A stretch of 64,000 nt of DNA from Thermanaeromonas toyohensis ToBE. Its GTDB lineage: Bacteria > Bacillota > DSM-521 > Neomoorellales > Neomoorellaceae. The position numbers were made by a program, and so were the translations under genes. Under the pieces are notes generated by a model. It did no database searches. It was not told where the DNA came from and worked only from the letters and a program-made list of their open reading frames with translations. Shown here one piece after another: positions 3,568 through 49,103 of this stretch (positions are counted from its first letter, which is position 1; each line of letters opens with the position of its first letter). The stretch is taken from assembly GCF_900176005.1 (NCBI RefSeq), contig NZ_LT838272.1, positions 1,073,587-1,137,586 of the forward strand, given 5' to 3'.

Positions 3568-4782
3568 ATGGCTAAGAAAGGGAAGTTCGCTCCTATTCCT
3601 AAAATAGCTAAAGTCCAGGTTACAGGGCGGCTAGACTCCCTTACGGATCTCTTAAAATTGCGGCTTTTTGAGTATTCTCCCCAGTCTACAGAGGAGCTGG
3701 TAGCTGCGGCCCAAAAGAAACTTTTAAGCGGTCAATCCACGGCTAAGGTACAGAAAAATGTCAACCGCTGTTTAAGTAGGAATCCTTGCTTTCGCCATGA
3801 AGGCAGGGGTTTGTGGTGCCTGCGCTTAGATGGCTTAAAAGAGAACGACGCAGCCCATAGGCTTTTACAGAGCAAAGGCGAAGCCTTGCGCCTTGATGAG
3901 ATCAACCGTTACTTACGAGATACAGGACAACCTGAAGTACAAGGGGAACAGAAACTGGTCCATGATGGCAGGTTTATCCGGCTTAAAGATGGAAGATGGG
4001 GCTTAATCCATTGGTCCTATGTGGAACCTAGTGAGGAAGCTAAGGGTGTAGAGGCTCCAACTACAACCTCTCCTGTTTCGCCGGAACCTATCTATCCTTT
4101 AGCCAAGCCGCCTGATGAGCCTCAAATCGAAAAAGAAGGTGATTTTTGGGATAAACTATTCCCTTTGCCCCCCTATGAAAATGGGAAGGCTACGTCCTTT
4201 GCTTCCGATTTTGCTTCGGAGGAAGTAGCAGCGGGAGCTGAGGTAGCTACCCTCACCCTTATAGAGGGAGGTAAGGCCGGGCGCGGAACCACCAGCCCCC
4301 AAGAGAACGAAGAAGTAATAGCCCTGCGCCAGGAAGTGGAAGAGCTCCGCCGGGAAAATAAAAATCTCCTAGCTGACCTAGAGAAACTCCACCAAAGGAA
4401 GGAAGAGTTGCGGCAGGAGCTAACGCAGGTAGAAGAGCAATTGGTAAACTTACGGGTAGAAAGGGATGCCCTGAAGAAAAGGGTGAGCCACCTGGAAACA
4501 CGGCTTATGCAGCTACAGGGCACCTTAAATAAGGCCGTGGCCGACGCCCAGGCTGAGCAAGCCAAGTTAAAACAGCAGTTGCGAGAACAGGAATACCGGC
4601 TACAGACCACATTAATCGCCAATGAAGATCTAGAGAGAGCAGTGGCCGAACTACAACGGGAAAAACAAGAATTAAAAAGGCAGCTTTCCTTGTGGCCTGT
4701 AAGGCTAGCCCTGAAATTCTCGAGTTTCTTGGGGCTTACCTATTCCCGGCAGAAGGTGGGCTTAAGACCCTTAAACAGGTAA
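3568..4782 (+). CDS. Uncharacterised protein: tandem winged-helix-like N-terminus plus coiled coil
   Basis: I do not recognise a named family. The 404-residue protein has two similar segments, about 18-88 and 90-150, each ending in a basic, aromatic 'GRGLWCLR' or 'DGRWGLIHW' edge. This resembles the HARE-HTH fold of RNA polymerase delta-type proteins. A low-complexity linker (about 155-240) leads to a long Glu/Lys/Gln/Leu heptad region (about 245-380) typical of a coiled coil, then a short basic tail. No membrane segment is seen. ATG 3568 is preferred over the in-frame GTG 3559 because GTG overlaps the AAGGAG site at 3551-3556. It converges on an ABC permease 17 bases away. A nucleic-acid-binding or scaffold role is inference. 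Confidence 0.75.
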   Translation: MAKKGKFAPIPKIAKVQVTGRLDSLTDLLKLRLFEYSPQSTEELVAAAQKKLLSGQSTAKVQKNVNRCLSRNPCFRHEGRGLWCLRLDGLKENDAAHRLLQSKGEALRLDEINRYLRDTGQPEVQGEQKLVHDGRFIRLKDGRWGLIHWSYVEPSEEAKGVEAPTTTSPVSPEPIYPLAKPPDEPQIEKEGDFWDKLFPLPPYENGKATSFASDFASEEVAAGAEVATLTLIEGGKAGRGTTSPQENEEVIALRQEVEELRRENKNLLADLEKLHQRKEELRQELTQVEEQLVNLRVERDALKKRVSHLETRLMQLQGTLNKAVADAQAEQAKLKQQLREQEYRLQTTLIANEDLERAVAELQREKQELKRQLSLWPVRLALKFSSFLGLTYSRQKVGLRPLNR

Positions 4783-4799
4783 GGTTTTAGGACCGGGGA

Positions 4800-5567
4800 T
4801 TATTTTAATAACCTCCGCTTTAGCAGGTATATGGGGGGATAAAAGAAAAGGGCGGCAAAGCCTATAAGCCATAGGATATGGACCCAGAGGATGCTGGTTA
4901 CTTGGCCCAGGGTCAGGGACCTGACTAGCTCTACAGCATGGTATAGGGGAGAAAAAAAGGCTATCTGCCGGGTAGGGGAAGGCATACCCTGCAAGGGGAA
5001 GAAAACCCCGGAGAAAAGGAACATGGGAGTGATTACTAAAGTAAAATAGTAGCTAAAGGTTTCCATTTTAGGCACAAGCCCGGTCCACATCATACTTAAC
5101 TCAGCGAAGGCAAAACAAGACAGGGCCAGTACAGGCGGGACAAGAAGGCTCCAGGAAGAAGGGACCAAACCTAAGGCGGCCACCACCAAAAGGATTACCG
5201 TCCCATATAGAACCCCTTTAAAAGTGCCGAAAAGTATCTCTCCTAAGACGATCTCTTCCAGGCTGATGGGGGTAACGATCAGGGCGTGGTAAACCTTTTG
5301 ATACCGCATCCGGGTAAAGCTATCGTAGGTGCATTCCGAGGCTGTGGCCCACATGGCAGAAGAGGCGATGAGCCCAGGGGCTATAAACTGGAGATAGCTT
5401 AACCCCTCGATGGAAGGGACATAGGCTCCCAGCCCTACTCCCATGGCCCCTAAGTAAAGAAGGGGCTCTATAAAGTTAAACATGATATTGGCCAGCCACG
5501 TCTTACGGAACACTATGAAATTGCGCCAGAAAACCTTCCACGTCCGGTGGGAAAGTTCTAACCTCAC
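4800..5567 (-). CDS. ABC-2 type exporter permease, NodJ-like
   Basis: A 255-residue integral membrane permease of the ABC-2/NodJ type with about six hydrophobic segments (roughly 25-55, 60-80, 105-135, 140-165, 170-195, 225-250). The family motif FSGVFFPLQGMP (186-197) precedes the last helices. It pairs with the adjacent ATP-binding subunit. Its GTG start at 5567 overlaps the ATPase stop (GTGA), so the two are co-translated. The substrate is unknown; the NodIJ branch also includes drug and polysaccharide exporters. Confidence 0.88.
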   Translation of the reverse strand: MRLELSHRTWKVFWRNFIVFRKTWLANIMFNFIEPLLYLGAMGVGLGAYVPSIEGLSYLQFIAPGLIASSAMWATASECTYDSFTRMRYQKVYHALIVTPISLEEIVLGEILFGTFKGVLYGTVILLVVAALGLVPSSWSLLVPPVLALSCFAFAELSMMWTGLVPKMETFSYYFTLVITPMFLFSGVFFPLQGMPSPTRQIAFFSPLYHAVELVRSLTLGQVTSILWVHILWLIGFAALFFYPPIYLLKRRLLK

Positions 5568-6502
5568 CGTGTCAGCCCCCTGCCGGCAAGCTTCAAAAAA
5601 ACATCTTCCAAAGTGGCTGGCCGCAGTATTTGATGGTGAAGATATTGGTGACGTTTACGCATCTCCTGCCAAATGCCGCGGCCATCATTGGTATATAAAA
5701 ACAAAGTTTCCCCCACGAGCTGGTACCCTGTAAGTTTAGAGGCCAAAGCGGAAGTGATTTTTTCCGCCCAGCGCTCCTTTACAGGGGCCAGCTCTATTAC
5801 TTCCTGCCCTATATGCTGACTAACCAGCTTGCCCGGTGATCCTTCGGCCAAAATCCGACCTTCGTTCATAATTAAAAGACGATCGCAAAGATAAGCGGCC
5901 TCTTCCATATAATGGGTGGTCAAAAGGAGAGTTACCCCCCGCTCTTTAAGCTGGCGCAGCTTTTCCCAGATCAGGCGCCGGGCTTCGGGATCTAGGCCAG
6001 TGGTTGGTTCATCAAGGATAAGGAGCTTAGGGTTGTTTAACAATGCCCGGGCAATGGCCAGACGGCGCTTCATACCCCCGGAAAGTTCTTCTACTCTGGT
6101 ATCGGCTTTCTCCTGTAAATCTATAAAGGCTATGAGTTCTTCTGCCCTCTGCCGGGCCACCTTGCTGGGCAAGTCAAAATAGCTGGCATAAAGGAGCAAG
6201 TTCTCCTTGACGGTAAGTTCGGGGTCCAGGTTATCTTCCTGGGGGACAACTCCTAGCTGAGCCTTAATAGCCCGCTGATGATGGCGGGCATCAAGACCTA
6301 AGACGTATAGTTCTCCTGCGGTAAGTGGGAGAAAGCAATAGATCATTTTGACTGTGGTGGTTTTGCCGGCCCCATTGGGTCCCAAGAAACCAACACATTC
6401 CCGGGCTTTTATGACAAAATTTATACCCTTTACCGCTGGTATCCCATTGTAAGATTTAACTAGCCCTCTGGCTTCTACTACAATATCTGGACACATACTC
6501 AT
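5564..6502 (-). CDS. ABC transporter ATP-binding protein, NodI/daunorubicin-type
   Basis: A 312-residue cytoplasmic ATPase that drives the adjoining ABC-2 permease. Visible elements are Walker A GPNGAGKTT (about 40-48), signature LSGGMKRRL (about 140-148), Walker B LLILDEPTTGLDP (about 160-172) and the H-loop TTHYMEEA. The C-terminal 90 residues form the extra domain usual in NodI/DrrA-type subunits. The gene is divergent from tatA across about 155 bases, which must hold promoters for both directions. Confidence 0.92.
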   Translation of the reverse strand: MSMCPDIVVEARGLVKSYNGIPAVKGINFVIKARECVGFLGPNGAGKTTTVKMIYCFLPLTAGELYVLGLDARHHQRAIKAQLGVVPQEDNLDPELTVKENLLLYASYFDLPSKVARQRAEELIAFIDLQEKADTRVEELSGGMKRRLAIARALLNNPKLLILDEPTTGLDPEARRLIWEKLRQLKERGVTLLLTTHYMEEAAYLCDRLLIMNEGRILAEGSPGKLVSQHIGQEVIELAPVKERWAEKITSALASKLTGYQLVGETLFLYTNDGRGIWQEMRKRHQYLHHQILRPATLEDVFLKLAGRGLTR

Positions 6503-40454: not shown

Positions 40455-41153
40455 ATGTTGTTTTATCCCGTGGATCCCACGTTTATCCTGTTAATACCAG
40501 CAATATTACTTTCCCTGTATGCTCAATTTAAGGTCCAAGCCACCTTTGAGCGGTATTCGCGCATACCTTCCAGGCGGGGATTAACTGGTGCTGAGGTGGC
40601 CCGGGAGCTCCTTAACCGTGCAGGCCTGTATGATGTACACGTAGAGATGGTCCAAGGGTTTTTATCTGACCACTATGATCCTCGGACTAAAGTACTCCGT
40701 TTGTCCCCCGCGGTTTTCCAAAGTAGCTCTCTGGCTTCTTTAGGTGTGGCTGCTCATGAGGCTGGTCATGCCCTCCAACACAGGACAGGCTATGTTCCTT
40801 TACATATCAGGTCTAGCCTCGTTCCCCTCGTATCTTTGGGGTCCAACTTAGCTATACCTTTGTTAATTTTAGGCTTGATCTTGGGGTTGCCTTCCCTCGC
40901 CCGCTTGGGAGTATATGCCTTCCTGTTGGTGGTGATGTTCACCCTGATCACTTTGCCTGTAGAGTTCAATGCCAGCCGACGGGCTGTTGCCCTGCTTGAG
41001 AGTGGGGGTTATTTGATAGGCCAAGAGGTTAGAGGAGCCCGAGAGGTATTAAATGCTGCAGCCCTTACTTATGTAGCTGCTGCTTTAACTGCCATTTTAA
41101 ACTTGCTACGCTTAATGCTTTTGACGGGGTTCTTCGGGCGTCGTGAAGAGTAG
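40455..41153 (+). CDS. YugP-type membrane zinc metallopeptidase
   Basis: A 232-residue protein of the neutral zinc metallopeptidase (Zn_peptidase_2, YugP) family. One N-terminal helix (3-22), zinc motif GVAAHEAGHALQH (about 96-108), then two long hydrophobic segments (about 118-165) and a C-terminal one (200-225). The HEAGH ligands face an unknown substrate. AAGGAGGGG precedes ATG. It overlaps rsmB by 11 bases. Confidence 0.88.
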   Translation: MLFYPVDPTFILLIPAILLSLYAQFKVQATFERYSRIPSRRGLTGAEVARELLNRAGLYDVHVEMVQGFLSDHYDPRTKVLRLSPAVFQSSSLASLGVAAHEAGHALQHRTGYVPLHIRSSLVPLVSLGSNLAIPLLILGLILGLPSLARLGVYAFLLVVMFTLITLPVEFNASRRAVALLESGGYLIGQEVRGAREVLNAAALTYVAAALTAILNLLRLMLLTGFFGRREE

Positions 41154-42501
41154 TCGGGAAGCCGCCCTGCATATTGTATACCGGGTCCTAGAAGAAGGAG
41201 CCTTTGCAAGTCTCGCGGCTAATGAGGTTTTAAAGGATAGCGGGCTAGATGCCCGGGATCGATCCCTGGCCCGGGAGATCGCTTATACAGCCATTAAGGC
41301 ATGGAATACCATTGACTGGGCCCTTAATTTATATTTGTCCAGGAAGAAGCTAGAAGAGCTACCAGCGTGGATTCGTTGTGTCTTGCGGATAGGGGCTTCC
41401 CAGATTCTTTTTTTATCTCGTATTCCCCCTTGGGCAGCTGTTTATGAAACGGTGGCCCTGGCCAAAAGATACGGCCATCGAGGAACTGCGGGCTTAGTTA
41501 ATGCGGTTTTGCGCCGCCTTTTACTCCAGAAGGAACAGCTCCCTTATCCTGATGTTAAAGAAGATCCGGTGGGGTATATCTCCCTTCGCTACCATCACCC
41601 GTCCTGGATGGTAGCTGAGTGGTTGTCCCGCTGGGGCCTGGAGGAGACCATAGCACTTTGTCAGGCTAATAATGTACCACCACCTTTAACTATCCGGGTA
41701 AACACACTAAAGGCCGATGTTTCTTTCGTACGGGAGGTTTTGGCCCAGGAAGGGGTGACTACTCATCCCTGCCGTTATGCTCCCGAAGGCCTAGTAGTAG
41801 ACAATCTCGAAGGCCTGGAGGATAGCTTGGCCTTTAAGAGAGGCTTATTTTACGTCCAGGATGAGGCTTCCATGCTGGTTAGCCATGCCTTAAATCCATA
41901 TCCTGGAAGCACAGTTGTAGATGCTGCTGCAGCTCCTGGAGGTAAGACTACTCACTTGGCTCAGCTTATGAAGAATCAAGGGCAGATTTTAGCTTTCGAT
42001 ACCCACGAGAAGAGGCTTTACCTTATTGCAGATAATTGTCGCCGTCTGGGCGTAACCTGTGTAGAGCTTCATCTAGAAGATGCCCGACGGCTTGGCGCTA
42101 GATACCCTAGTGTAGCTGATTACCTTTTGGTGGATGCTCCTTGCTCGGGGCTGGGGGTATTACGTCGGCGGCCTGACGCTCGCTGGCGTAAAGATTATCG
42201 CGAGATGGAGGAGTTAGCCGAACTCCAGCTAGCTATTTTAAAAGGCTCTTTGGGGGTCCTTAAGCCGGGAGGTGTCCTGTTGTATAGCACTTGCACCTTA
42301 ACTTGGAAAGAAAACGAGGGAGTAATCAACCGTTTTCTCCAAGAGATCCCGGGGGTAACCCCAGAGGATCTTTCGGCTTATCTTCCATCCCTTCCGCGAG
42401 ATCTTAGAGAGCAGGCACGGCGGGGACAAGTCCAGTTTCTACCACACAAACACGGGACAGATGGTTTTTATATAGCTCGCCTACGTAAAATAGGAAGTTG
42501 A
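41143..42501 (+). CDS. rsmB: 16S rRNA m5C967 methyltransferase
   Basis: A 452-residue RsmB. An N-terminal NusB-like domain (about 1-135) precedes the methyltransferase. The SAM site is VDAAAAPGGKTTHLA (about 260-274). The catalytic cysteines are in DAPCSGLGVLRRRPD (about 335-349) and STCTLTWKENE. GTG start overlapping the preceding gene. It ends a translation and RNA-modification operon starting with priA or def. Confidence 0.95.
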   Translation: MKSSREAALHIVYRVLEEGAFASLAANEVLKDSGLDARDRSLAREIAYTAIKAWNTIDWALNLYLSRKKLEELPAWIRCVLRIGASQILFLSRIPPWAAVYETVALAKRYGHRGTAGLVNAVLRRLLLQKEQLPYPDVKEDPVGYISLRYHHPSWMVAEWLSRWGLEETIALCQANNVPPPLTIRVNTLKADVSFVREVLAQEGVTTHPCRYAPEGLVVDNLEGLEDSLAFKRGLFYVQDEASMLVSHALNPYPGSTVVDAAAAPGGKTTHLAQLMKNQGQILAFDTHEKRLYLIADNCRRLGVTCVELHLEDARRLGARYPSVADYLLVDAPCSGLGVLRRRPDARWRKDYREMEELAELQLAILKGSLGVLKPGGVLLYSTCTLTWKENEGVINRFLQEIPGVTPEDLSAYLPSLPRDLREQARRGQVQFLPHKHGTDGFYIARLRKIGS

Positions 42502-42524
42502 TAAAGTAAAAAGGGGTAGCAAAA

Positions 42525-43001
42525 ATGGATTTTATGCCTTGGCAGGCCGTGATTTTTCAATCCATTCCGGAGAGTATAATATTAATCAGTCTAGGTTTAG
42601 GGTTTTTGGGCCTTTATCCACCCTTTAACGGGGTCGTTTTAGTAGCTACTGTTTATTCCCTTTCCTCAGTTGTGATCCGGGGGTTACCTTTACCCTTTGG
42701 AGCCCATACCCTTATCCTTTTACCCTTGTTAGCAGTACTTCTTAAACTTTTCTTTAAGATAGAGTGGTGGAGGGCAGCTACAGCCGCCTTATTAGGGACT
42801 ATAATTTTTGGCCTTGTAGAGAGTATTTCTATTCCTCTTATGCTTTTCCTTACAGGATATGATCTGGCCACGGTGATGCATGACTCTTGGCTACGGGTTC
42901 TTTTCCCTTTACCCGATGAAATTATATTAGGGATGTTGGCGTGGATAGTTTGGAAAAAGCGCCTTTCCCTCTTTCGTCCAGGACGGCCCAAGTTTTACTA
43001 A
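42525..43001 (+). CDS. Five-helix membrane protein, probable sensor half of a split AgrC-like receptor
   Basis: A 158-residue hydrophobic protein with about five membrane segments (roughly 14-34, 37-55, 60-78, 84-112, 128-146) and no catalytic domain. The start MPWQAVIFQSIPESIILISLG resembles the N-terminus of AgrC-like clostridial kinases, by eye. The kinase gene begins seven bases downstream and supplies only two helices, so the two together would give the usual 6-7-helix receptor. That is inference. No family name can be given with confidence. Confidence 0.6.
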   Translation: MDFMPWQAVIFQSIPESIILISLGLGFLGLYPPFNGVVLVATVYSLSSVVIRGLPLPFGAHTLILLPLLAVLLKLFFKIEWWRAATAALLGTIIFGLVESISIPLMLFLTGYDLATVMHDSWLRVLFPLPDEIILGMLAWIVWKKRLSLFRPGRPKFY

Positions 43002-43007
43002 AGGGGG

Positions 43008-43880
43008 ATGGAAGAGGGCATGAGTAGAAAACCTTTAATTTTGGTGGCCTTGGTTTTGATCTTGTTAGAGACCCTTTTTTTTGTTTTATTAAACCTAAAT
43101 TTTATAATGGCTCCCGCTTTTCCTACCCTCTGGCCCAACGCAGTTACCGCTGTCCAGGTCATTTCGCCCTTTTTTATAGCTACTTCTTTAAGCTTGATTT
43201 TCCTTCTTTTTAAGTATGTAAATAAAGAACTGGAGGCTTCCAACCAGCGCATATACATAGAGAATTTACGCGAAAGCCTAGAGAACTTGCGGGCTCAGCG
43301 TCATGATTTTATGAGCCATCTGCAGGTAATCCATGGATTACTGCAACTGGGGATGATCGGCGACGCTAGGGACTACGTGGCCTCTTTATGTGCTGAAATC
43401 CGCCAACCCACCCGTATTATTTCCCTGAACCAGCCTACGCTAGCAGCCCTGCTCCAGAGCAAGATTACCCTAGCGGAATCCCAAGGCATCGCTTGCCAGT
43501 GTGAGGTAACTACCGAATTAAAGGAATTGCTGGTGCCCGGGATGGATATAACCAGAATATTTGGTAATTTATTGGACAATGCTATTGAAGCCCTCAAGGA
43601 GGCTACAGGTGAAAGGCGGCTCTGGCTACGTATTTACGAGAGGGAGGAAGAGTATGTATTTGAGGTAGGTAACACCGGTCCTGCCATTCCCCTGGCCCTA
43701 CAGCAAAAAATTTTTGAACGGGGTTTTACTACGAAAAAAAACAGGGAGGGTCATGGCCAGGGCTTATTTATTGTTAAGACTTTAGTAGATAAGCATAAGG
43801 GTCGCATTAGTGTACACAGCAGCGACCAGGGTACCGTGTTTACGCTTCTTTTTCCCCGCAATAAAGACAGCAAATTTTAA
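43008..43880 (+). CDS. AgrC/Spo0B-type sensor histidine kinase
   Basis: A 290-residue kinase. Two membrane helices (about 9-33 and 47-70), then the Spo0B-like dimerisation domain with RHDFMSHLQVIHGLLQLG (phospho-acceptor H99), then a GHKL ATPase: N box FGNLLDNAIEAL (about 184-195), G1 VGNTGPAI, F box FERGFTTKK, G2 GHGQGLFIVK. Its place before agrB and agrD makes it the likely peptide receptor kinase. Full AgrC proteins are longer because they carry 6-7 helices. No LytTR response regulator lies in the window. ATG 43020 is an alternative start. Confidence 0.82.
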   Translation: MEEGMSRKPLILVALVLILLETLFFVLLNLNFIMAPAFPTLWPNAVTAVQVISPFFIATSLSLIFLLFKYVNKELEASNQRIYIENLRESLENLRAQRHDFMSHLQVIHGLLQLGMIGDARDYVASLCAEIRQPTRIISLNQPTLAALLQSKITLAESQGIACQCEVTTELKELLVPGMDITRIFGNLLDNAIEALKEATGERRLWLRIYEREEEYVFEVGNTGPAIPLALQQKIFERGFTTKKNREGHGQGLFIVKTLVDKHKGRISVHSSDQGTVFTLLFPRNKDSKF

Positions 43881-43924
43881 CTGAAAAAGAAGGATTTTCA
43901 TCTTTACTATAGAAATATGTAAAT

Positions 43925-44578
43925 ATGGTAAGCCTTCACAATATAGCTCGAAAATGGGCCCAAATTCTACTTACCAAGGTTGGGCCAGAGAGTAAACCTT
44001 ACAGGAATTATGGGCCAGAGGCTCTGGCAGTGATAACCTACGGCCTGGAGATAGCCTTGGGAGCTTTAGGGGAAGTAGTAGCTGTAATAAGCGTAGGGGT
44101 TTTGGTAAAAATGTTCCCAGAAATGATGGCAGCTTTTCTTACCCAGGCTGTATATCGTTTGGGCGCCGGAGGGGCCCACTGCACTGCCTATTACCGCTGT
44201 TTGGTGAGCTCCCTGATGGCCTTGCTTCTTACGGCTGGTTCCGCACGTTACTTAGAGAAGATAATGCCAGAATGGGGGGTTATGGGGTTAGCCCTTGCTG
44301 CTACCTTGGTAGGGTTAGCGGTAGTTGCTCGCTGGGCGCCGGCAGATACACCGGCTAATCCTATTACCAATCCTTTAAGGCGAAACTTTCTCCGGCGGTT
44401 AAGCTTTTTATTTTTAACTAGTTGGTCAATTGCTGTATTTTTGGCTAGAGGTTGGGTAAAAGTGAGTATTCTCTATGCCTCCATTATAGCCGTGCTCCTA
44501 CAAACTTTAACTGTCACGCCACTAGGGTACCGGTTACTAGAGAGGGTGGACAGGAGTTTAGGCGGGAAGGGGTTTTGA
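43925..44578 (+). CDS. agrB: AgrB-like accessory gene regulator protease
   Basis: A 217-residue membrane protease that trims AgrD and closes the signal ring. The catalytic pair is visible as GGAHCTAYYRC, with H85 and C92 separated by six residues as in staphylococcal AgrB. About five hydrophobic segments follow (41-62, 97-115, 119-137, 160-175, 182-200). No clear ribosome site is seen before ATG 43925, although AAGGA lies further upstream. The agrD gene begins 22 bases after its stop. Confidence 0.87.
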   Translation: MVSLHNIARKWAQILLTKVGPESKPYRNYGPEALAVITYGLEIALGALGEVVAVISVGVLVKMFPEMMAAFLTQAVYRLGAGGAHCTAYYRCLVSSLMALLLTAGSARYLEKIMPEWGVMGLALAATLVGLAVVARWAPADTPANPITNPLRRNFLRRLSFLFLTSWSIAVFLARGWVKVSILYASIIAVLLQTLTVTPLGYRLLERVDRSLGGKGF

Positions 44579-44600
44579 ACAGGGAGGAGGTGAAAAAAGG

Positions 44601-44735
44601 ATGTGGCGTAAGGCTCTAGCCTGGGCAGTATCTTGCCTGTCCCTTTTGGCGGTATTGGTAGCCCAGAGTAGCGTCTTGCCCACCAGTACCTTGGCTTGGT
44701 ACCAGCCGGAGGTACCGAAGGGCCTACGGAGATAA
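44601..44735 (+). CDS. agrD: AgrD-like cyclic (thio)lactone autoinducer precursor
   Basis: A 44-residue peptide gene, preceded by GGGAGGAGGTG. An N-terminal amphipathic leader (MWRKALAWAVSCLSLLAVLV) anchors it in the membrane. The signal region is LPTSTLAW (26-33), followed by the AgrB recognition tail YQPEVPKGLRR (34-44), the hallmark of the family. The usual ring cysteine is absent: Ser29 is the best nucleophile for a five-residue ring S-T-L-A-W. This is the arrangement of the Staphylococcus intermedius signal RIPTSTGFF, which closes as a serine lactone. Cys12 is in the leader, too far away. A terminator follows. Confidence 0.85.
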   Translation: MWRKALAWAVSCLSLLAVLVAQSSVLPTSTLAWYQPEVPKGLRR

Positions 44736-44790
44736 GGGTAGAAAAGATAGAGAGAATAGCAACGCAACTAGGGGAAGTAGAGTATAGTCG

Positions 44791-44818
44791 AGGGGGGAGT
44801 ATACCCTCCTGTTTTTTT
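44791..44818 (+). terminator. Terminator of the agr locus
   Basis: AGGGGGG (44791-44797) pairs with CCCTCCT (44804-44810), including one G-U pair, around a 6-base loop; seven T residues follow. Confidence 0.8.
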
Positions 44819-44926
44819 ATTTTCGGGTAGCTATAAAAGGGGAAGAACCTATTGGTATATAATGGTATAAGTTTAGCCATACTAGTTTTCAGGCCTGGTA
44901 TAATATTTACCAGGGGAATCTTATGT

Positions 44927-45994
44927 ATGGAAAAAGTTGAACTTTATGGGCTTGAACTGGGTGAGTTAAAAGAGCTTGTAACCCAACTAGGAGAGCCTAG
45001 TTACCGGGCCACCCAGCTTTTTCATTGGATTCATGCTCACCAGGCTGGGGAATGGGAAAAAATGACCAATTTGCCCCGGGCCTTTAGAGAAAGATTAGGA
45101 GAAGTGGGCTTTCTCCCTCAATTTTCCTGCTTACGCCAGTGGCAAGACCCCTGGGACGGTACTACTAAGCTTTTACTTAAGTTGCGCGATGGAGAAAAGA
45201 TCGAGTGCGTTTTGATGACCTACGAGAAAGAGGGTAAGGCTTCTAGATATACCGCTTGTGTTTCCAGCCAAGTCGGTTGCGCGCTGGGATGCGGGTTTTG
45301 CGCCACAGGGCAGTTGGGCTTTAGGCGTAATCTTACAGCCGGAGAGATCGTGGGGCAAGTTTGGGCTTTACAGCGCTATTTAGGCCCCCGGGAAGGGGGA
45401 AAACGTATTGGTAATATAGTGTTTATGGGCATGGGAGAGCCCTTACTAAATTATGAGGCCGCTCTCAAAGCACGGCGTATCTTAATGGATCCTAACGGTT
45501 GGGGGATAAGCCACCGGAAGATTACCCTTTCTACTTGTGGACTAGTACCTCAGATTAAACGCCTGGCCGAGGAAGAACCTCCGGTTGAACTGGCTGTTTC
45601 CCTGCACGCTACAACCGATGAGGTACGGGATAAGCTAGTACCTATCAACCGTCGTTATCCGCTAAAGGAACTTCTTAAGGCCTGCCAGTACTATGTGGAA
45701 AAGACTAACCGGAAGATCACCTTTGAATATATTTTGATCAAAGGAGTTAATGACTCCTTGGAAGATGCCAAACGTTTAGCTCGGATGGTAGGAGGTATCT
45801 TAGCCTATATAAATCTTTGGCCCTTTAACCCTATTCCTGGATCTCCTTGGGAGCCGTCCTCAGGCGAACAAGTGCAAGATTTTGCCCTACAGTTAAAAGA
45901 GCGGGGTCTAGAGGTAGCTATAAGGGAGAGCCGGGGTAGCCGCATTGCGGCTGCCTGTGGCCAGTTACGTTATTACTCGGCGAAGGAGGTTTAG
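44927..45994 (+). CDS. rlmN: RlmN: 23S rRNA A2503 / tRNA A37 C2-methyltransferase
   Basis: A 355-residue radical-SAM methyltransferase. The CALGCGFCATG motif (about 115-125) holds the Fe-S cysteines. FMGMGEPLLN binds SAM, and the methyl-carrier cysteine is in AACGQL near the end. ATG 44927 is chosen because a TATAAT at 44899-44904 would start the transcript near 44911, downstream of the longer in-frame start at 44852, and the AGGGGAA site fits it. It opens the conserved rlmN-prpC-prkC-rsgA-rpe order. Confidence 0.95.
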   Translation: MEKVELYGLELGELKELVTQLGEPSYRATQLFHWIHAHQAGEWEKMTNLPRAFRERLGEVGFLPQFSCLRQWQDPWDGTTKLLLKLRDGEKIECVLMTYEKEGKASRYTACVSSQVGCALGCGFCATGQLGFRRNLTAGEIVGQVWALQRYLGPREGGKRIGNIVFMGMGEPLLNYEAALKARRILMDPNGWGISHRKITLSTCGLVPQIKRLAEEEPPVELAVSLHATTDEVRDKLVPINRRYPLKELLKACQYYVEKTNRKITFEYILIKGVNDSLEDAKRLARMVGGILAYINLWPFNPIPGSPWEPSSGEQVQDFALQLKERGLEVAIRESRGSRIAAACGQLRYYSAKEV

Positions 45995-45997
45995 GGC

Positions 45998-46738
45998 ATG
46001 GGTTGGCTTGAGGATATAGAAAATTTTTGGCGACGCCTTTTTGAAGGAATTTTCCAGCGGGGCAAGGAACAGCCCCTACACCCGGTACAGATCGCTAAAG
46101 CCCTGGTAAGGGTTATGCTGGATAGCCGTTCCATAAGCGTTAATAAGGTTTATGTACCTAATATATATTTAGTGTACTTAAGTCCCCGGGATTTTGAAAA
46201 CCTCTCCATGTATAAGAAGGCCCTGGCTTCTGAATTGGCTGAGTATCTACGAGAACGAGCATCGGCGCAGAATTATACTTTGGTGGGGGACATCAAGGTG
46301 CTTTGGGAACTTGACGAAGAGCTTCCACCTGGGGGGCTTCGCGTCCATGCCCGGATGGAGGAGCAATGGGCTTCTCCATCCCCAGAGGATACATTGGTAT
46401 ATCCTCCTGTAAAAGAAGGAGTATCCGTTCCATCTCGCCGTCCAGAATTTAGGCTTTTGGTTGTAGAAGGGCCGGACCAGGGCCGTACCTTTGTTTTACA
46501 TGAAGGCCGACAAGTATTAGGTCGCAATCCTACCTGCGAAGTATTTTTAACCGATGATCAAGTTTCCCGTCAACATTGTCAAATCGAAGTAGAAGAAGGG
46601 AAAAGCATCCTTACAGATCTAGGAAGTAGAAACGGGACGTTGGTGAACGGTCAGCCTGTGCAGCGGGCCTTGTTAAACCCTGGGGATCACATTCAAGTAG
46701 GACGTACTCTCTTACAAGTGCAGGTGGTGGGGCAATGA
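45998..46738 (+). CDS. fhaA: FhaA-like protein: DUF3662 plus FHA domain
   Basis: A 246-residue cytosolic protein. DUF3662 covers about 1-115. A linker with VYPPVKEG leads to a C-terminal FHA domain (about 150-245) with LGRNPTCEVFLTDDQVSRQHCQI and SRNGTLVNG, the phosphothreonine-binding residues. In actinobacteria FhaA is a target of PknB and acts in cell-wall synthesis. With prkC, prpC and two wall-synthesis genes here, the same job is likely. It overlaps the next gene by 4 bases. Confidence 0.88.
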   Translation: MGWLEDIENFWRRLFEGIFQRGKEQPLHPVQIAKALVRVMLDSRSISVNKVYVPNIYLVYLSPRDFENLSMYKKALASELAEYLRERASAQNYTLVGDIKVLWELDEELPPGGLRVHARMEEQWASPSPEDTLVYPPVKEGVSVPSRRPEFRLLVVEGPDQGRTFVLHEGRQVLGRNPTCEVFLTDDQVSRQHCQIEVEEGKSILTDLGSRNGTLVNGQPVQRALLNPGDHIQVGRTLLQVQVVGQ

Positions 46739-47214
46739 CCCCTTGGCTTATAATGGTGTTTCGCCTTTTGTTTGTCTTTCTCCTTTATTTGTTTTTATTC
46801 CATGTTTTACGACTAATGTACCAGGATTTATTCAAGGAAACCCGGACATGTTATCCTTTACGGAGTGGAAGATTGGTTCTGAAGGTAAGGGAAACCTTAA
46901 ATACTAATTTAAAAAAAGGAGAAGTTTACCCCCTTGCCGAAAGTATTATGATCGGGAGGGAGGAATGGAACGATATCGTTATAAAGGAAAGCCATGTCTC
47001 CGGGCGCCATGCTATTATCACCCGCCAAGGCTTGAGGTGGCAGATCCGCGACTTGGGTAGTACTAATGGGACCTATGTAAATGGCGTACGTATTGAAGGA
47101 CCGGTAGACCTCGTACCGGGAATGGAGGTACGTATTGGCGGGGTGACTTTTGAAGTGGGGTGGGAGAATGCGAGCCGAGGCGCTTACCCATACCGGGTTA
47201 ATACGTCCAGATAA
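46735..47214 (+). CDS. fhaB: FhaB-like membrane-anchored FHA protein
   Basis: A 159-residue protein. One N-terminal membrane helix (about 3-27) is followed by a cytosolic FHA domain (about 55-150) with IGREEWNDIVIKESHVSGRH and LGSTNGTYVNG. It is a phosphothreonine reader, probably for PrkC. The start is coupled to fhaA by ATGA. Its 3' end overlaps the phosphatase gene by 47 bases. Confidence 0.88.
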   Translation: MTPWLIMVFRLLFVFLLYLFLFHVLRLMYQDLFKETRTCYPLRSGRLVLKVRETLNTNLKKGEVYPLAESIMIGREEWNDIVIKESHVSGRHAIITRQGLRWQIRDLGSTNGTYVNGVRIEGPVDLVPGMEVRIGGVTFEVGWENASRGAYPYRVNTSR

Positions 47215-47878
47215 CGAAGATGCCTTTCTAGTAGATACCGAGAAAGGGCTTCTGGCCGTAGCTGATGGGATGGGCGGGCATCAAGCAGGGGAGGTAGCCA
47301 GTTTCCTCGCCCTCCGGGCCTTAGCAGAAAAATTGAAAGAGGAACTGGTGGAAGACCCGCTAGCTAAACTCCTGGCTGCTGTGCATTTCGCTAATGAAGT
47401 GGTATATCGTTCGGCCTGCCAAAGCCCGGAATTGAGCGGGATGGGTACCACTTTAACAGCTGCTTGGGTGGTAGGTTCCCAAGCTTTTCTGGCCCATGTG
47501 GGCGACAGCCGAGCTTATCTTTTTCGCGGCGGGCGGTTGGAAGTCTTAACCCACGACCATTCCTATGTGGGTGAGCTGGTAAGGAGCGGTGATCTTACAG
47601 TAGAACAAGCCCGCCTCCATCCCCATCGTAATATTCTGACCCGGGCCTTAGGTACTGAGGCCGAAGTTATAGTTGATACCCGGGTTGTTGGTCTACATAC
47701 AGGAGATCGCCTGCTTCTTTGCACTGATGGATTACCTGAAGTGGTTAAGGATGAGGAAATCGCTGAGGTCTTAAGCTCAAGAACAGGTCTTAAGGAGGCG
47801 GTGCAAAGCCTTGTAAGATTAGCCTTAGAACGGGGAGGACCCGATAACGTTACGGTGGTGCTAGGAGCTTATGAGTAG
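47168..47878 (+). CDS. prpC: Stp1/PrpC-type PP2C Ser/Thr protein phosphatase
   Basis: A 236-residue metal-dependent phosphatase that reverses PrkC action. Motifs are PDNEDAFL, VADGMGGHQAGEVAS (about 35-49), HVGDSRAYLF, LLCTDGLPEVV and GGPDNVTVVL, with the aspartates that bind two Mn/Mg ions. ATG 47168 with GGGAG before it is preferred over GTG 47150, since family proteins begin near RAEALTHTG. It overlaps the ftsW-type gene by 8 bases. Confidence 0.93.
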   Translation: MRAEALTHTGLIRPDNEDAFLVDTEKGLLAVADGMGGHQAGEVASFLALRALAEKLKEELVEDPLAKLLAAVHFANEVVYRSACQSPELSGMGTTLTAAWVVGSQAFLAHVGDSRAYLFRGGRLEVLTHDHSYVGELVRSGDLTVEQARLHPHRNILTRALGTEAEVIVDTRVVGLHTGDRLLLCTDGLPEVVKDEEIAEVLSSRTGLKEAVQSLVRLALERGGPDNVTVVLGAYE

Positions 47879-49103
47879 GAGGTGGCGGGAGTTTACCCTT
47901 CTCCTGTGGCCAAATCTTATACTCTTAAGCGGCTATTTTTATAGCCAGATCTTGGGAGGAACGCTCACTTCTTTAGGGATTCCTGAGTTCAGTCTTTTAT
48001 GTAGTTCCTTTCTGGGCGCCCATCTAGTATTAAAGGCTAGCAAGCACCAAGGAGACGAATATTTGTTACCCCTAGCAGCCATGTTGACCAGCTTAGGTCT
48101 AATTTTCCTTTTTCGTTTAGATCCAACCTTGGCTAAGCGACAGGTAGCCTGGACGGTGATAGGTTTACTCGCCTTGGTATCCGTATGCCTAAGAGGAAGG
48201 GATTATCAACGGATACTTCGATATCCCTATCTGTATCTTATTTTAGGGCTTTTTTTTCTAAGTTTGACTATAATCGCAGGAACCCGGATAGGTGGTGCTA
48301 AGAGCTGGATAGTTTTGGGTCCTTTAAGCCTTGAGCCTGTGGAAGCGGTTAAAGTACTGGTAGTGCTTTTTTTGGCTGGATTTTTGGAAGAAAAGAAGGA
48401 ACTTATGCTGGAGCAACCGAGTTGGTCACGGTCCTGGGGCCCTCTTCTAGTTGCGGTTAATCTAGCGGTACTTCTTTTGGTGCTCCAGCGTGATCTGGGT
48501 TCTGCTTTAATTTTACTGGTAGTCTTCTTAGCCATAATATACCTAGCTACCGGCCGAAAACGTTACGTAGCTGTAGGCACTTTTTTATTTACGTTGGGAG
48601 CCTTGGGTGCTTATGTATTTTTCCCGCACCTTAAGTCTAGGATAGCCATATGGCTTAATCCTTGGGAGGATCCTCAAGGAGCTGGGTACCAGGTAATACA
48701 GGGGTTACTAGCCATAGCCAGCGGAAGGGTTTTAGGTACCGGAGTAGGACTAGGTTATTCCCAAATTATACCTGCGGTGGCTACAGATTTTATTTTTGCC
48801 ACCATGGCGGAAGAGATGGGCTTCTTGGGGGGGTTAGGGACAGCCATACTTTACCTCCTTTTTGGCTATAGAGGATTTCGGGCGGCTTTGGATGCCCCTG
48901 AAGAGCAAGGAACCTTGCTAGCCGCCGGCTTAACTATACTAATCACTTTTCAGGCCTTTATCATCATGGCAGGGGTAACTAAACTTTTACCCTTGACGGG
49001 CGTTACCTTGCCCTTTGTAAGCTACGGGGGGAGTTCCCTGGTTATAAGTTATCTAATTTTAGGTTTACTCCTTAATGTGAGCGCAGCCAGGCGGCAGGTG
49101 TAA
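47871..49103 (+). CDS. FtsW/RodA/SpoVE-family SEDS glycosyltransferase
   Basis: A 410-residue membrane protein with about 10-12 hydrophobic segments, the SEDS family layout. RIAIWLNPWEDPQGAGYQ (about 251-268) is the large-loop signature, and LPLTGVTLPFVSYGGSS (about 370-386) ends the core. SEDS proteins polymerise glycan strands from lipid II. Pairing with the transpeptidase directly downstream is the normal functional couple. The FtsW versus RodA role cannot be settled from sequence. Confidence 0.92.
   Translation: MSRRWREFTLLLWPNLILLSGYFYSQILGGTLTSLGIPEFSLLCSSFLGAHLVLKASKHQGDEYLLPLAAMLTSLGLIFLFRLDPTLAKRQVAWTVIGLLALVSVCLRGRDYQRILRYPYLYLILGLFFLSLTIIAGTRIGGAKSWIVLGPLSLEPVEAVKVLVVLFLAGFLEEKKELMLEQPSWSRSWGPLLVAVNLAVLLLVLQRDLGSALILLVVFLAIIYLATGRKRYVAVGTFLFTLGALGAYVFFPHLKSRIAIWLNPWEDPQGAGYQVIQGLLAIASGRVLGTGVGLGYSQIIPAVATDFIFATMAEEMGFLGGLGTAILYLLFGYRGFRAALDAPEEQGTLLAAGLTILITFQAFIIMAGVTKLLPLTGVTLPFVSYGGSSLVISYLILGLLLNVSAARRQV

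Follow-up and report, generated by a model that had tools for sequence, protein, structure and literature searches.

The analysed stretch of the Thermanaeromonas toyohensis ToBE genome (64,000 nucleotides of contig NZ_LT838272.1; hereafter, the window) contains four genes on the forward strand between positions 42525 and 44735 that are considered here together. These are a gene for a 158 aa membrane protein with five helices (42525–43001), a gene for a 290 aa histidine kinase (43008–43880), agrB (43925–44578), and agrD (44601–44735). They sit inside a conserved housekeeping cluster (41143–49103) comprising rsmB, rlmN, and the genes for FHA proteins, a PP2C-type phosphatase, and an FtsW-like protein, the last three being assigned by eye.

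The stretch 44601–44735 is a genuine agrD gene. It starts with ATG, is preceded by the ribosome-binding site AGGAGGTG (44585–44592, recognized from the sequence), and encodes a 44 aa signal precursor, MWRKALAWAVSCLSLLAVLVAQSSVLPTSTLAWYQPEVPKGLRR. This product matched the NCBIfam AgrD model TIGR04223 with 32.5 bits (E 6.5e-8; curated cut-off 19 bits) and has orthologues that share its Ser29. The PF04647 gene agrB ends with its stop codon at position 44578, 22 nt upstream. An earlier note, made from the DNA sequence alone, had described a 44-codon gene 22 bases after agrB; coordinates, length, start, and gap were all confirmed. The same note took the C-terminal segment YQPEVPKGLRR (44700–44732) for the AgrB-recognition region, which is supported by the invariance of QPEVP in the orthologues of the family. 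Its remark that no Cys is available near the cut site also holds: the sole Cys of the peptide is Cys12, within the leader. The cassette likely ends at a terminator-like hairpin followed by a T run (44791–44810), identified by consensus match in a region where the number of such sites was no higher than in shuffled sequences.

The agrB product is a 217 aa membrane protease, which matched PF04647 with an E value of 1.1e-32. It carries a catalytic-type pair, His85 (44177–44179) and Cys92 (44198–44200), seven residues apart and invariant in the AgrB alignment (A1). The closest named relative, with 73% identity, comes from a metagenome-assembled genome of Thermanaeromonas, a genus of the Neomoorellaceae. 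The gene order rsmB, sensor, kinase, agrB, agrD, rlmN is kept in Moorella, and the cassette also lies between rsmB and rlmN in a Thermanaeromonas congener. This kept place of the cassette points to its vertical inheritance.

The two genes upstream of agrB were considered as candidate halves of an AgrC receptor. The kinase possesses two N-terminal membrane helices, a SpoOB-type helix domain, and an HATPase domain (PF14689, PF02518, PF14501). The 158 aa protein was assigned to no family in the Pfam search. Its predicted helical structure is confident (pLDDT 91); a fold search of the PDB with this model gave no significant match, and neither did PDB sequence searches with the AgrB and sensor alignments. 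While an AgrC unites sensor and kinase in one protein, these parts are encoded by two genes in the window; in about a dozen relatives they are fused in the same order in a single ORF of ~445–545 aa. One such fused protein (L106) shares 32% identity with the first window protein over residues 12–165 and 31% with the second over residues 228–457, and it matched the staphylococcal AgrC model NF046015 over residues 72–435 (7e-20). Run on the genome, this model gave an alignment from 42705 to 43796, that is, across the TAA between the two genes, with 40.8 bits; with the joined sequence of the 158 aa protein and the kinase it aligned over residues 58–421 with 46.8 bits. Both scores lie far below the equivalog cut-off of 500 bits, and at this level the match speaks for homology rather than for a proven function. 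The kinase part of the match is generic, and the model also picks up kinases in control genomes. On its own, the 158 aa protein gave no match with this model. The sensor protein is found together with AgrD in 100 of 112 genomes (odds ratio 70), and the lengths of its homologues are clearly bimodal: among the 150 matches listed, 123 are of up to 215 aa and 26 of at least 400 aa.

Based on the fused homologues, the model alignment, and the co-occurrence, the genes at 42525–43001 and 43008–43880 appear to encode an AgrC receptor split over two genes. It is less likely that the 158 aa protein is an accessory of export or leader-peptide processing. Proteins of this type also adjoin agrB–agrD in loci that have no kinase, and the protein is without a known family. 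However, its fusion partner in the relatives is the kinase and not AgrB, and the alignment with the AgrC model spans both parts. A literature search, which covered few subscription papers, revealed no paper on a split AgrC. As far as the searched literature shows, an agr cassette with a divided receptor is new, while the AgrD itself is of a known type.

In the AgrD precursor, the predicted ring STLAW (44685–44699) reaches from Ser29, encoded by AGT (44685–44687), to Trp33. Counted back from the YQPEVP anchor, Ser29 is the fifth residue, which is the spacing of the ring nucleophile found in the alignment and in the census described below. The genome encodes three further AgrDs with the rings CAFFW, CYYLA, and TGPWS; thus, the window AgrD has Ser where two paralogues carry Cys and one carries Thr. 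The Cys at the equivalent position can be seen in the paralogue KPTCAFFWYQPEVP. Ser29 and Pro27 are invariant in 11 orthologues with 36–84% identity. The ring interior is hypervariable in these peptides: residues 30–32 vary freely, Thr30 among them, and Thr28 is replaced by Ala or Ser. The corresponding segments include VLPASTLLW, VVPSSILTF, IGPASSITW, VLPTSAWVW, VWPASVLLW, VLPASIWLW, ALPTSLLAW, VLPTSTWAW, and similar ones.

The residue at the ring position was surveyed in 160 distinct AgrDs, nearly all from this phylum, which form a non-random sample enriched for the family of the window and for window-like AgrBs: 89 possess Cys, 68 Ser, and 3 Thr, and none possesses any other residue. The subset from a phylum-wide AgrD search comprised 24 and 38 Cys, 5 and 20 Ser (one of which, L157, is really Cys), and 1 Thr. 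The AgrB tree was constructed from 136 rows, with the tips labelled by the ring residue of the partner AgrD (L157 as Cys). The window AgrB belongs to a 28-row clade (SH-aLRT 93) whose partners are all of the Ser type, and the ring type changes 10 times on the tree versus a mean of ~46 after shuffling. The Ser ring is an old trait fixed in a clade and not an isolated variant. According to the earlier note, Cys in the relatives, with the window sequence as a lone exception, would have refuted its reading; the outcome spoke against such a refutation, Ser29 being invariant in the orthologues. The ring Ser is encoded by AGY in 65 of 68 cases, whereas the genes of the partner AgrBs use AGY for 294 of their 744 Ser codons; these numbers are inflated by relatedness. 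The excess fits an old fixation or an origin from the Cys codons TGY, but a single step would likewise lead from TGY to TCY. The residue following the catalytic His of AgrB was examined as a possible marker of ring type and rejected, as Cys occurs there in 42 of 58 Ser-type and 27 of 76 Cys-type proteins with no separation of the two.

The invariance of Ser29, the occurrence of only Cys, Ser, or Thr at the ring position, and the all-Ser AgrB clade make a Ser29–Trp33 pentapeptide lactone the most likely product of this AgrD. The same lactone had been proposed in the earlier note, and the comparison of homologues supports it well, with Ser29 invariant and Thr28 and Thr30 variable. The peptide could instead be exported in a linear form or be closed via Thr28 or Thr30, which we regard as improbable. 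Serine is less nucleophilic than cysteine, and the AgrB of S. aureus was reported to be unable to process a Ser-containing AgrD (PMC10482373). However, the two threonines vary in the orthologues where Ser29 does not, the ring position is solely Cys, Ser, or Thr in the 160 AgrDs, and in Clostridium thermocellum the cyclic peptide slowed growth while the linear form had no effect (PMC5322536).

For C. thermocellum, a thermophile, a Ser25–Phe29 pentapeptide lactone was confirmed in 2017 by means of LC-MS/MS and a synthetic standard (Verbeke et al., PMC5322536). Because of this precedent, the view of the earlier note that a serine lactone would be unusual in a thermophilic clostridial host was not upheld, and the chemistry proposed for the window gains support from it. 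Serine-lactone chemistry is already known and, with a Ser ring in 68 of the 160 AgrDs, is common in this bacterial group. The window AgrD resembles Clo1313_2818 of C. thermocellum in its predicted Ser-closed five-residue ring, the aromatic last residue, and the origin from a thermophilic anaerobe of the class Clostridia. Clo1313_2818 has no identified neighbouring AgrB or AgrC, whereas the window contains the adjacent agrB and the putative split receptor. Acetivibrio mesophilus, of one genus with C. thermocellum, encodes an AgrB that shares the GGxHCxAYYRC motif of the window protein, and an AgrD of the Ser type (ring SMFLM). The lactone signal RIPTSTGFF of S. intermedius/pseudintermedius shares the predicted Ser-closed five-residue ring and the P-T-S-T order, but has a four-residue tail and is encoded in a canonical agrBDCA locus with fused AgrC and with AgrA. 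A point mutation of a Cys codon was reported as the possible origin of its Ser, while that of the window is old and clade-fixed. The agrBDCA system of S. aureus shares the AgrB and AgrD families, the PEVP anchor, and an AgrC-type sensor kinase, but differs in its thiolactone, a single fused AgrC, and an adjacent AgrA.

A LytTR regulator of the AgrA type was not found adjacent to the cassette; three LytTR genes are present in the genome (one contig of 3.33 Mb), none of them nearby. Many loci with a Cys ring contain genes for the sensor protein, AgrB, and AgrD, the last followed directly by that for a membrane GGDEF-HD protein (PF00990, PF13487) instead of a kinase. This arrangement was detected in about 35 loci across the phylum, including two Cys loci in the genome of T. 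toyohensis (L012:2730–5741 at ~3.22 Mb and L013, minus strand, at ~2.145 Mb). The RYGG[DE]EF motif is intact in most of these GGDEF-HD proteins and reads RYANDEF in the L012 copy. Neighbours of the Cys-ring loci are a GGDEF gene in 36 cases and a kinase gene in 24 (two loci counted in both), and those of the Ser-ring loci a kinase gene in 45 and a GGDEF gene in 2, both of the latter being one locus (L129) with the gene upstream and separate. The ring residue was considered as a marker of output type (Fisher p 6e-10); we do not claim such a link because the tree offers too few independent contrasts. The literature search, again with few subscription papers covered, yielded no paper on AgrD beside GGDEF genes. 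We tentatively suggest, at somewhat less than even odds, that the membrane half of AgrC in this phylum is a free-standing five-helix protein with varied outputs, namely a short separate kinase in Ser loci such as that of the window or a GGDEF-HD protein for c-di-GMP turnover in many Cys loci, that Agr may thus act on c-di-GMP without a two-component system, and that the Thr-ring group makes a threonine lactone.

Thr-ring AgrDs (TGPWS, TGFWS) occur in three genomes (L008:1468–1599 on the minus strand, genome positions 2414367–2414465; L052; L165), beside Ser (SGPWG) and Cys relatives within one supported AgrB clade. Thr at the ring position predicts a threonine lactone. In the T. toyohensis genome, agrB and the Thr-type agrD are separated by an ORF of 438 aa (L011, reverse strand, 4366–5682, ~2.415 Mb) that resembles an IS110-type transposase by eye; in L048, from another genome, these two genes are adjacent. 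Several extra AgrDs that are nearly identical to each other, with SWLAW as the ring and in most cases QPETP in the tail, were found in L030, L033, L036, L045, L049, and L055. They belong to the genomes G006, G009, G014, and G015, with up to four in G009, and some have no AgrB nearby. These peptides have the look of a second Ser family that multiplied recently.

We consider it probable (about 80%) that the four genes at 42525–44735 are a vertically inherited agr cassette, in which a Ser29 lactone made by AgrB is sensed by a two-piece AgrC; the identities of the genes, their conservation and synteny, and the existence of fused homologues were demonstrated, and from these we infer the cleavage site, the lactone bond, the receptor pairing, and the output. 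AgrB, through Cys92, would cut AgrD after Trp33, and the hydroxyl of Ser29, replacing the usual Cys thiol, would accept the acyl group to form the five-residue lactone Ser-Thr-Leu-Ala-Trp, which may also bear a short tail, for example Pro-Thr. After secretion, it would be sensed by the five-helix protein and the two-helix kinase, together forming one AgrC, and the response regulator would be encoded away from the cassette. It is hardly credible that a recent stop mutation or a sequencing error has divided a single AgrC gene into sensor and kinase. In the window, both parts share one reading frame with one TAA between them, but the same division is present in the congener, Moorella, and Desulfofundulus, and different frames or an overlap in 18 of 22 gene pairs (one locus counted twice) indicate that one stop mutation does not account for it.

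With the serine lactone predicted here, a chemistry known from single cases is extended to a whole conserved clade. The T. toyohensis genome combines AgrB/AgrD pairs of the Cys- and Ser-ring types with a Thr-ring AgrD, so the choice of nucleophile by AgrB becomes testable within one organism. If the receptor is indeed split, the AIP-sensing membrane domain, for which the PDB sequence search gave no solved relative, would be open to study as a 158 aa protein without its kinase. Should the GGDEF-linked loci function as their appearance suggests, they would represent a second, kinase-free output of agr systems.
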